A stretch of 64,000 nt of DNA from Microcaldota archaeon (GCA_020854835.1 JAHKLX010000038.1:62001-126000), one strand, 5' to 3'. Counted from the stretch's first letter, positions 29,762-45,427 are shown. Translations and numbers: made by a program. The notes: a model not told the origin generated them from the letters alone.

Positions 29762-29893
29762 GCAGGGGTGGCGGAGCTTGGTCAAACGCGCTGGACTTAA
29801 GGAACTTTCTTTGCGAAGCAAAGAACCTTCACTAAGAAAGCTTTGGATATCCAGTGGCTTAGGCCTGCGTGAGTTCGAATCTCACCCCCTGCA
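29762..29893 (+). tRNA. tRNA-Leu(UAA) with 47-nt intron
   Basis: Acceptor GCAGGGG/CCCCTGC with discriminator A, class II variable arm (TGGCTTAGGCCTGCG), T-loop TTCGAAT. Anticodon stem CTGGA/TCCAG encloses CTTAAG plus A38, anticodon TAA. The intron is placed at 37/38 (29802-29848) and has an inner hairpin TTCTTTGC-GAA-GCAAAGAA. The expected central helix pairs at three of four positions, so the exact junction may differ by a base or two. Confidence 0.9.
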
Positions 29894-42922: not shown

Positions 42923-42951
42923 ATAAAGAGTGGGGTCATGGGGATTTGTTC
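42923..42951. repeat. Direct repeat: tRNA-Trp 3' end (original copy)
   Basis: Matches 42003-42031 with one mismatch. Includes tRNA positions 73 to the end of the T-loop intron plus 8 bp outside the gene. Looks like an attachment-site type duplication. Confidence 0.85.
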
Positions 42952-43078
42952 AACTTCTTTCTTGATGAAACTTCTTTCGGAAAGAAGTTTCTTGAACCCC
43001 AATATGCAGGTTTCTTATTCACGGTAATGTTCTTGCGAACCTGGAGCCTACCGTGCTACCTGGTTACACCATGACCCC
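42931..43078 (-). tRNA. tRNA-Trp(CCA) with two introns
   Basis: Acceptor GGGGTCA/TGACCCC, discriminator A. Anticodon stem GTAGG/CCTGC encloses CTCCAG plus A38, anticodon CCA. Intron 1 (43012-43040, 29 nt) is at 37/38 and has a GTTC-GCAA-GAAC hairpin. The T-stem TGGGG/CCCCA encloses TTCAA and AT that together make the T-loop TTCAAAT, split by intron 2 of 46 nt (42946-42991, or shifted by up to 3 nt because of repeated bases). The intron 1 length is too short for the box C/D guide found in many euryarchaeal tRNA-Trp introns. Confidence 0.9.
42956..42991 (-). repeat. Shared tRNA-intron sequence, copy in tRNA-Trp T-loop
   Basis: First 36 nt of the T-loop intron, beginning GAAACTTCTTT and ending CATCAAGAAAGA. 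33 of 36 nt are identical to the first 36 nt of the tRNA-Gly(CCC) intron, the three differences falling in the hairpin loop (CCG versus AGA). Confidence 0.9.
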
Positions 43079-43127
43079 AAATAGATTACTTTAATGTATG
43101 AAATGATTTTTAAATGTTGAGAAAAAC

Positions 43128-43388
43128 TTATAAAAGAATTTTTAGTAACTTCATTCGGATATTTTCTGTTGTAACTGCTTTCATCAAAGAAATTTTTTTG
43201 GCTTTTGTTTTCTCCCCAATATGTGAAATCCAGGGACTGAAATGTTTATTGGTTTGATGATAGTATAAAGATTCTGCGGGTAAAGTATGAATTAAATCAA
43301 TAAATTCTTTTATGTTTGCAGCTTTGCCGATGATTTGTTCATTCGGCATTTTAAAGTAAAATTCCTCCCCAGGATTACAAGTTTTCAT
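43128..43388 (-). CDS. DUF5752-like small protein
   Basis: 86 residues from ATG 43388 (MKTCNPGEEFYFKMPN), 6 bp after GGTGAT; an in-frame extension to 43433 has no ribosome site. The pattern FYFKM...AANIKEFIDLIHTLPAESLYYHQTNKHFSPWIS resembles the DUF5752 family (helix with a conserved YYH). Function unknown. It follows the secreted protease gene on the same strand. Confidence 0.6.
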   Translation of the reverse strand: MKTCNPGEEFYFKMPNEQIIGKAANIKEFIDLIHTLPAESLYYHQTNKHFSPWISHIGEKTKAKKISLMKAVTTENIRMKLLKILL

Positions 43389-43429
43389 ATTATCACCCAA
43401 AAAACCTACAAAGATTAGATTTATAAAAC

Positions 43430-45121
43430 TCACTGTCTGCTTAAAATAATTATTGCGACAGATTGTATCAGAATAATGAACAAGCCTACACCAACCAAAA
43501 TCATTAGATTGTTAAAAGAATTAATTTTAGAATAGTCACACTCAGTTTGCAATTCGTCAAAATGTATATCTTCCTTTTGAAGAGTGTCATAAACATCTTC
43601 ATAAGCATTATCAAAATAAACTGCCATAATCATTAGTTTATATGCTTCTTCTTCATTTCCATTTTTCAACAAATACATGCCCTGCCCAAAATATAATTTT
43701 CCCCACAATCCTTTTGGAGTATACACTTCAGCAACATCCAATATCAGTCCCATATCCTCATCATCACCATCATTTGCCCTTTGTAAAGCTTGTGCAAAAG
43801 CGCTTTCATAGACTGCTGCAATGTATTGTTTGTTATCTAGATTATCTTTGGCTAGAGAATAATGCCAAACTGCATCTGATGAAGGATTGGGTGAGCGAGT
43901 CAATATTTTTTCGGTTTCTAAAATCCATTTTTCAGCTGTTTTTTGGACTTTGTTCTCATTTATTGTTTCTCCTGAGGTGTCCATAGTATTTAACAACAAA
44001 CTTACTTTCAACCATGCTGATGCATAAGACAAATCATAAGCTAAAGAATATTGTTCGTCACCTACTGCTTCTATTTGATCACCAACAGCTTCAACCTTAC
44101 TTTTTGCCCAAGTATACCTCATATAACCTCCCACTACCGATTCAAAATTTTTATCTGTTTTTTCGGTTACGGGTTCGAATTCTTGAACAGTTTTGTTGAT
44201 GTGTGAATGATATAATTTTAGATTTTGATATTTTGTTAAGTATTCTACAAATAATAGATCAGTATAATGTAAAAATAAATTATTTGCAGCTGTAAACTTG
44301 TAACCTTTTTCATTTAATTTGTTTTGATATTCAATATCATCTATCATAAAACCCACTATGTTCGACAAGATAGAGGTATTCGGAGAAATTGTATCAACTT
44401 CATCAAGAACCTCATAGCCCAAACCATAAACAACTGTATCAAAATTATTTATATTTTCTGTTTGTAAATCTTCAACATTAAGATTTGGGTGCGGGAGAGA
44501 ATAACTAACTTCGGGAAGCTCCTCATCTGAAAAAACATAATTAAACAAAGTATCAATATCCTCAACATGAACAATAGTAACACCATATTTCTCATTTATC
44601 GTTGAAACGAGGAGATAATCTTTATTGGATACAATTGGAGTTATAAAATAATTTTTATTGTATATTGATGCTGTTTTGGCTTTGCCATCCAATCCACCCA
44701 CAGAACCAATACTGCCGCGCGTATTAACTGAACCAGTTATGATAATATCATCTCTCATGGTTTGATTTGTGATTGCACTATAAACTGCACATGTGAATAA
44801 TGCTCCTGCAGAAGGACCATCTATAAATCGTGCGCTGCTAGGTATTGTATAAAAAACATTGCATTCATTTAAATTGTGTCCTGATTTTTTGAAAGCGAGT
44901 TCAACTGCGTTTTGTGCAGATTGCTGCGTACTGATGCCAATATATGGATCGATAGAAGTGTAAACATTTCCATCTCCTTCAGCAACTAAAACATATATTT
45001 TCAATAATCCTCCTTTCGCATCCCCCACAATTGCAGGCGCCTCAACAACCGCCAAGCCTGTAGGGCATTTTGAAAATACAATTGATGATATAAACAAAAA
45101 CAATATTAATATTTTTTTCAT
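43430..45121 (-). CDS. Secreted Lon-like (S16) serine protease, membrane-anchored
   Basis: 563 residues from ATG 45121 (after GGTGGGTGTGATA). N-terminal signal peptide, then an S16 domain with the catalytic Ser in DGPSAG (Ser104) and Lys in GGLDGKAKTA (Lys147), no AAA domain. The long helical C-terminal part (residues about 220-535) ends in a membrane helix (LVGVGLFIILIQSVAIIILS) and short tail. The active site should lie outside the cell, anchored at the C-terminus. Substrate processing or quality control of exported proteins is likely. Confidence 0.88.
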   Translation of the reverse strand: MKKILILFLFISSIVFSKCPTGLAVVEAPAIVGDAKGGLLKIYVLVAEGDGNVYTSIDPYIGISTQQSAQNAVELAFKKSGHNLNECNVFYTIPSSARFIDGPSAGALFTCAVYSAITNQTMRDDIIITGSVNTRGSIGSVGGLDGKAKTASIYNKNYFITPIVSNKDYLLVSTINEKYGVTIVHVEDIDTLFNYVFSDEELPEVSYSLPHPNLNVEDLQTENINNFDTVVYGLGYEVLDEVDTISPNTSILSNIVGFMIDDIEYQNKLNEKGYKFTAANNLFLHYTDLLFVEYLTKYQNLKLYHSHINKTVQEFEPVTEKTDKNFESVVGGYMRYTWAKSKVEAVGDQIEAVGDEQYSLAYDLSYASAWLKVSLLLNTMDTSGETINENKVQKTAEKWILETEKILTRSPNPSSDAVWHYSLAKDNLDNKQYIAAVYESAFAQALQRANDGDDEDMGLILDVAEVYTPKGLWGKLYFGQGMYLLKNGNEEEAYKLMIMAVYFDNAYEDVYDTLQKEDIHFDELQTECDYSKINSFNNLMILVGVGLFIILIQSVAIIILSRQ

Positions 45122-45234
45122 TATCACACCCACCTTCTATGTTTTGAAACAAAACAAACTTTTGAAAATCAAAAACTGTTTTGTAATATGCGCTCGCCGG
45201 GAATCGAACCCGGTTCTCAAGCTTATTCCAAACC

Positions 45235-45275
45235 AAAGAATCTCATCTTACTTCTTTTCTAAAGAATCTCATCTT
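45235..45275 (-). repeat. Tandem 26-bp repeat inside the tRNA-Gly(CCC) intron
   Basis: AAAGAATCTCATCTT occurs at 45235-45249 and 45261-45275 on the plus strand (26-bp period), with shared flanking CTTCTTTTCTAAAG elements. It accounts for the unusual intron length. Confidence 0.8.
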
Positions 45276-45307
45276 TCTTGATGAAACTTCTTTTCTAAAG
45301 AAGTTTC
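45272..45307 (-). repeat. Shared tRNA-intron sequence, copy in tRNA-Gly(CCC)
   Basis: First 36 nt of the tRNA-Gly(CCC) intron, matching the tRNA-Trp T-loop intron at 33 of 36 positions. Both copies begin right at the 5' splice junction with GAAACTTCTTT. Confidence 0.9.
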
Positions 45308-45427
45308 TGGGAAGCTCGTATCCTACCGGTAGACTACGAGCGCACAACAATAAGTTTAAACAGAAGTTTTTTAAATTCTTTCCACTACAGTATTCTAAAA
45401 GAAAACTATTTGTTGCTTTAATTTTAA

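Follow-up and report, generated by a model that had tools for sequence, protein, structure and literature searches.

Homologous introns in two unrelated tRNA genes of a Micrarchaeota genome and the probable dispersal of a short intron family

Two similar introns in unrelated tRNA genes

Why should two unrelated tRNA genes carry almost the same intron, and at different positions of the molecule? The question is raised by two minus-strand genes in the window (i.e., the whole 64,000-nt stretch of DNA that was analysed). The gene for tRNA-Trp(CCA) (42931..43078, identified by sequence reading; exons at 43041-43078, 42992-43011 and 42931-42945, with coordinates also obtained by BLAST of the spliced tRNA) has a canonical 29-nt intron at 37/38 (43012..43040), unrelated to the family described below, and a 46-nt intron in the T-loop (42946..42991), which we place at 58/59 and which can be written at 56/57 or 57/58 without changing the spliced sequence. 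Taking out both introns leaves a regular tRNA-Trp(CCA). The gene for tRNA-Gly(CCC) (45189..45343, also by sequence reading; exons 45308-45343 and 45189-45223) yields a regular tRNA once an 84-nt intron at 37/38 (45224..45307) is removed. As the original prediction stated, the T-loop intron (GAAACTTCTTTCCGAAAGAAGTTTCATCAAGAAAGA..) and the Gly(CCC) intron (GAAACTTCTTTAGAAAAGAAGTTTCATCAAGAAAGA..) are identical at 33 of their initial 36 nt, and the three mismatches are exactly the 3-nt hairpin loop. None of 300 alignments of shuffled introns reached the observed score (z ~10), and a 35-nt pattern with the loop left free was found at only two places in the window (none expected), namely GAAACTTCTTT-CCG-AAAGAAGTTTC-ATCAAGAAAG in Trp (42957..42991) and GAAACTTCTTT-AGA-AAAGAAGTTTC-ATCAAGAAAG in Gly(CCC) (45273..45307), both on the minus strand. 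At the level of sequence, the alignment establishes that the two copies are homologous. Both begin at the predicted 5' splice junction, with central-helix pairs of 4/4 of a bulge-helix-bulge (BHB) motif in each, and the surrounding tRNA bodies are unrelated, which excludes duplication of a whole tRNA gene.

The genome that contains the window (G000) belongs to a Micrarchaeota genus, and its nearest relative in our set is Candidatus Micrarchaeota archaeon AUK095 (G001, JAGGVH010000046.1). Its assembly comprises 145 contigs at 87% completeness and 5.6% contamination, and all genomes compared are metagenome assemblies. Within the window ARAGORN reported only two tRNAs (tRNA-Met and tRNA-Gly(GCC)) and Rfam six, adding four with introns; tRNA-Trp and tRNA-Gly(CCC) were missed by both and were read by eye. 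By the same visual reading, about 25 of the roughly 36 archaeal tRNA genes of the genome have introns. Several small contigs (C131, C124, C137, C35, C113) carry bacterial-looking tRNA genes (L007, L008, L012, L004, L019, L028, L030), several with an encoded CCA, that point to assembly contamination; bacterial-looking, CCA-encoding tRNAs on small contigs were left out of the tally. Standard scanners likewise return mere fragments of some AUK095 genes with T-loop introns.

Copies within the genome, across archaeal phyla and in different RNA genes

The unit common to the two introns, hereafter family 1, has as its core a perfect hairpin whose 5' arm starts with GAAACTT and whose 3' arm ends with AAGTTTC, followed by the tail ATCAA. 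With up to 3 mismatches allowed, the pattern occurs seven times in the genome and its reverse never. Six copies are tRNA introns (Val(UAC), Trp T-loop, Gly(CCC), Gly(UCC), His(GUG) and Arg(UCU)) and begin at the 5' junction or one base off; the seventh lies between two protein genes, beginning in the TAG stop of an apparent prolyl-tRNA synthetase and preceding a Kae1-like start (both named by reading the translation). The Val, Gly(CCC), His and Arg introns can be aligned over ~60 nt with 50-53 identities in 58-61 positions (53/58 between Gly(CCC) and the Val(UAC) intron at C5:49093), and thus whole introns are homologous, beyond the hairpin. Since the same intron occupies at least four other tRNAs of the genome, the Trp and Gly(CCC) loci, 2.3 kb from each other, are no special pair, which could not be seen from the window alone. 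A longer family-1 unit with the loop CGGGTTGCCT (L114) is also present as a direct repeat, its two copies 2.5 kb apart (G000:C17:10492 and 13000) and both with the 5' flank CCTGGAGCACTGATA; related loops are present in G031 and G163.

Across 295 Micrarchaeota genomes, the relaxed motif GAAACTTN{3,20}AAGTTTCATCAA gave ~100 matches in 54 genomes, and in the phylum of ARS1286 it gave 26 matches in 11 of 194 genomes; the reversed motif, an equally palindromic control, gave none in either case. Among 61 distinct inner sequences, the stem extends past the required 7 bp by a mean of 2.57 bp vs 0.41 in shuffles. Searched for in 84,980 species, the exact 28-base form matched six contigs, each with the label of a DPANN-type archaeon (Nanoarchaeota, Micrarchaeum, Micrarchaeota and Aenigmatarchaeota), and no Thermoproteales contig. 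The Aenigmatarchaeota copy lies in a second, non-canonical intron of a tRNA-His whose 37/38 intron also starts with GAAACTTCTTTCAAAAA, and the Micrarchaeum copy is the inverted half of a tRNA-Arg intron. Two exact family-1 forms were without a match in viral contigs, as was the control, and a viral vector was rejected on this ground. In G471 and G480 (L227, L228, L235, L238), a conserved GAGTTGACGGCGG-like sequence stands before the hairpin, right after stop codons, and is possibly another 3'-end element.

A total of 96 Micrarchaeota copies were classed by hand from their flanks, with Rfam used for rRNA; hosts were assigned by eye because ARAGORN, run on excised copies, handled single-intron tRNAs only and sometimes returned a wrong anticodon. 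About half of the copies lie inside stable RNA genes. Inside tRNAs there are 41, i.e., 26 at 37/38, 7 in the D-arm, 5 in the T-arm or variable region, 2 that are inverted halves of palindromic introns and 1 that is a duplicated 5' part, and a further 7 sit on tRNA 3' flanks. Three copies were found in 23S rRNA, one each at the 3' ends of 23S and 16S, one downstream of 16S, and six in apparent C/D box sRNAs; four fall in pilin-like N-terminal coding sequence and 32 elsewhere. Stable RNA genes account for roughly 1-2% of a genome of this kind, and the copies are therefore strongly enriched in them, with the caveat that copies in related genomes are not independent and that the binomial test ignores shared ancestry. 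Near protein genes, again with shared ancestry ignored, copies are mostly on the sense strand (~14 vs 2-3, counted where the two neighbouring genes have one and the same direction).

Some individual insertions have features of their own. In the pilin-like genes (L109, L127, L133, L152), the hairpin is read in frame close to the N-terminus (SAMEYLMTYG), and the near-repeats of the SAMEY coding stretch on either side of it look as though the target had been duplicated. At L172 (G130:C56:4300-5300), a tRNA-Gly gene has its initial ~14 nt in three repeats separated by a hairpin element, which is a tandem duplication of target plus element. In C/D box-like guide RNAs (L086, L089, L120, L135, L138, L144), the inserts lie between the D' and C' regions and consist of a palindromic two-hairpin element in either strand orientation.

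Family 1 is not alone. The intron of tRNA-Leu(UAA) (29762..29893, plus strand; intron at 37/38, 29802-29848; ACTTTCTTT..GCAAAGAACCT-CACTAAGAAAG), proposed earlier as an older relative of the Trp intron, was rejected as such: its similarity to Trp is marginal (1/300 shuffles) and it fits better to a second family, matching the Thr(CGU) intron of G001 at 34 of 43 positions. The introns of Ser(CGA), likewise proposed as a relative, and of Ser(UGA) were rejected for lack of significant similarity (Ser(CGA): 21/300 shuffles against Trp, 73/300 against Leu). The signature of family 2, GCACTTT-hairpin-AAAGAACCTGCACTAA(A/G)AAA, is present in 25 of 295 genomes, many times above its control, in tRNA introns and directly 3' of tRNA-Leu, where CCTGCA is the tRNA end itself. 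Units of this family, in some cases tandemly repeated, abut tRNA 3' ends at L175, L178, L194 and L201 (for Leu, ..CCCCTGCA directly followed by CTTTCTTT..), an arrangement suggesting that family 2 originated in the 3' terminus of a tRNA together with the trailer. A third set comprises the G001 T-loop introns of Trp, Lys, Arg(UCG) and Ala(GGC), which start with (C/T)G(A/T)CCTTTT (L252, L060, L076, L077), and a fourth the 37/38 introns of G001 Trp and G000 Arg(UCG). Several distinct intron families are thus in circulation, at least two of them with phylum-wide signatures. The orthologous tRNA-Ile(UAU) introns of G000 and G001 (L010 and L066) begin with TGACCCGTTCTG; the one in G001 contains a C/D-box-like TGATG..CTGA and possibly encodes a guide RNA.

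Filled and empty sites, splicing and competing explanations

The original prediction had suggested a comparison with intronless orthologues, and the T-loop of tRNA-Trp is indeed uninterrupted in G035, G023, G008, G041, G032 and G018 and, by BLAST coordinates, in G017, G038 and G003. The Trp T-loop of G001 is interrupted by a different intron, 86 nt long and identical at 83 of 86 positions to the T-loop intron of tRNA-Lys in the same genome; judged from these sequences, this pair is a clearer case of transposition than the Trp/Gly(CCC) pair of the window. The tRNA-Lys(UUU) of G001 is interrupted in the D-loop, at 37/38 (family 1) and in the T-loop, and its orthologue in G000 nowhere; tRNA-Arg(UCG) has a T-loop intron in G001 only and a 37/38 intron in G000 only; and tRNA-His has a 37/38 intron in both, with the element in G000 and without it in G001. 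In the 23S rRNA of one genus, G163, G160 and G031 have an insert at site A, and G057 alone has one at site B, 46 nt long and with a textbook BHB (central CAGU/ACUG, inner GGAAACUU/AAGUUUCC). Both sites are empty in six congeners, and such filled and empty sites show precise gain or loss. Highly similar introns at different positions of unrelated tRNA bodies and intronless orthologues in close relatives, two marks of the transposed-intron class, are both present.

Can these insertions be removed from the precursor? The Gly(CCC) intron forms a BHB (bulge CA|G, central helix TTCC/GGAA with 4/4 pairs, inner helix of 5 bp), and so do Val and 23S site B (central 4/4; inner helices of 5-8 bp over the three). 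The Trp T-loop intron also has a 4/4 central helix (GTTC/GAAC) and is best described as a relaxed BHB, because its inner helix needs a one-base slip. Arg and Lys have the central helix only, and in His, Ile and Gly(UCC; by eye) the BHB is not clear; for His, Ile, Arg and Gly(UCC), the placement of the junctions is uncertain. A second copy of the 3' arm at the intron end can pair with the 5' arm in Val, in 23S site B and, with the slip, in Trp. The first 3' arm is able to compete for this pairing; for the Trp precursor without its 37/38 intron, RNAfold chose the distal pairing. The genome encodes a three-unit endonuclease of the epsilon2 type, a full-length match to the ARMAN-2 enzyme (E 3e-100), for which broad substrate specificity is described in PMC12397907. 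With this enzyme encoded and exons that join to normal tRNA-Trp and tRNA-Gly, removal of the introns can be inferred in the absence of RNA data. Group I and group II introns were rejected, as no such Rfam family matched in the window, where the introns measure 46-84 nt.

On these grounds, we consider it likely that the Trp and Gly(CCC) introns belong to a single family of short, dispersed introns of the BHB type, cut by the endonuclease and spread by transposition, a reading in which both splicing and the route of transposition are inferred; dispersal from a common ancestor as such we regard as very likely. In the precursor, going by established biology, the 5' arm would pair with the second 3'-arm copy near the intron end to form the inner helix of a BHB or relaxed BHB, the epsilon2 endonuclease would cut both junctions and RtcB would join the exons, so that a spliced insertion would be nearly neutral. 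The part of RtcB is assumed here on general grounds. The intron may then be mobile at the RNA stage: the hairpin RNA, freed or as a circle, would be ligated in sense orientation to abundant structured RNAs, either within their loops or at their 3' ends, and a DNA copy of the product would enter the gene by recombination. The sense orientation of the copies and their location in loops and at the 3' ends of RNAs are consistent with insertion at the RNA level, yet we offer this weaker inference only tentatively, with none of its steps demonstrated. Several observations count against the dispersal of a BHB intron: a number of copies are without a perfect BHB (Arg, Lys, His, Gly(UCC)), and the Gly copy in G084 does not start at the junction. 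Moreover, every intron ends in a 3' sequence that complements the exon of its particular host, a fit that is not accounted for if a single sequence was merely pasted in.

Other explanations have to be weighed against this one. Chance, i.e., AT-rich convergence of two short introns, had been named as the outcome that would refute transposition, and both introns are in fact A/T-rich and hairpin-forming; the shuffles, the empty reversed palindromic control against ~100 matches and the conservation of a tail outside the stem refute it, and we give it practically no credence. Gene conversion or recombination among existing tRNA introns, with hairpins overwriting parts of other introns and no dedicated mobility, would account for the His introns with and without the element and for the G000 Arg(UCG) element, which lies in an intron that corresponds to the G001 Trp intron in its first half (48/59 in total). 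It is partly refuted by filled sites whose counterparts in relatives lack any intron (Lys, 23S A and B, Trp T-loop) and seems unlikely to us.

Two further proposals take the hairpin itself as the unit, and both appear improbable. If hairpin and ATCAA were a functional RNA element (a processing, stabilising or protein-binding signal) under selection, with similar copies arising or kept independently in tRNA introns, RNA 3' ends and UTRs, the observed conservation of the tail over large distances and the exact sense-strand abutment seen at the 3' ends of tRNA, 16S and 23S and at stop codons would be accounted for; however, the closest relatives lack the hairpin at the same sites, a Trp T-loop of the same genus carries quite a different intron and the homology runs past the hairpin to ~60 nt. 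A REP- or MITE-like hairpin transposon, moved as single-stranded DNA by a Y1/HUH transposase and surviving in RNA genes through removal by the endonuclease, would agree with a hairpin that has a conserved foot and a flanking tail, with some copies that resemble a pair of hairpins inverted about ATCAA..TTGAT (L079, L122), with the existence of tandem copies and with the approximately one third of copies outside stable RNA genes, a fraction that also counts against our preferred reading. Nevertheless, Y1_Tnp is present in 22 of 54 element-bearing and 87 of 241 other genomes (Fisher p 0.54, no association), G001 and G078 have copies and no detected Y1, the sense-strand bias beside protein genes speaks against it and a search for a common upstream target sequence found none.

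Relation to known systems and implications

The inferred spread of family 1 by transposition has a precedent, at least in kind. Transposition of tRNA introns is known from Thermoproteales, according to PMC4090602, which cites Fujishima 2010; what we claim for the introns of the window is the same kind of event and not common descent. Here the carriers are Micrarchaeota and other small-genome archaea, a different phylum-level group, the signature hairpin and ATCAA tail are common to genera and phyla, and the hosts extend to 23S rRNA, C/D sRNA and RNA 3' ends, with at least two families having phylum-wide signatures. ARMAN/Micrarchaeum (4FZ2, 9W2K; PMC12397907) belongs to the same group and has the same enzyme type, to judge by the full-length match, and introns at non-canonical positions are expected; in contrast to our findings, the accessible part of that paper makes no mention of intron transposition or of a shared intron family. 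In Atabeyarchaeia and Freyarchaeia, as here, most tRNAs have introns, many of them non-canonical or multiple, but the available part of PMC11291895 reports no intron sequence that is dispersed in homologous copies. The disruption of tRNA-Thr(GGU) in Caldiarchaeum (PMC3293823) resembles our case as a population-level intron gain in an archaeal tRNA, yet it was explained by integrating plasmid-like elements with an integrase, whereas the inserts described here are tens of nt long and geneless.

Bacterial REP/PU elements are short dispersed hairpins moved by RAYT Y1 transposases. Family 1 is similar in being short, dispersed and hairpin-forming; unlike them, it is not dominated by intergenic copies and has no association with Y1 transposases. 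In the open literature we found no report of tRNA intron transposition in Micrarchaeota, nor of shared intron families that reach rRNA and sRNA (subscription papers were mostly outside the scope of the search).

The original idea of a transposed tRNA intron is therefore supported and was, if anything, understated, as the element recurs throughout the genome and the phylum and has filled and empty sites in relatives, with its splicing still without RNA data. It is possible, although we hold it to be less likely than not, that family 1 represents a minimal mobile element living in RNA genes: a ~30-nt hairpin with an ATCAA tail and no gene of its own, which would insert in the sense direction into loops and 3' ends of tRNA, rRNA, C/D sRNA and some mRNAs across several small-genome archaeal phyla, survive through splicing by the host tRNA endonuclease and move by RNA ligation and copying back to DNA.

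The way in which archaea acquire tRNA introns has yet to be settled, and a review (PMC4090602) calls the mechanism unknown; family 1 shows the spread of a tRNA intron unusually clearly. Many tRNA genes in this archaeal group escape tRNA scanners, and intron gain is here linked to an endonuclease type known for broad specificity. These intron families can be followed across hundreds of genomes by their sequence signatures; they have hosts other than tRNA and sites that are filled in one close relative and empty in another, which makes their insertion preference, orientation, target structure and rate measurable.
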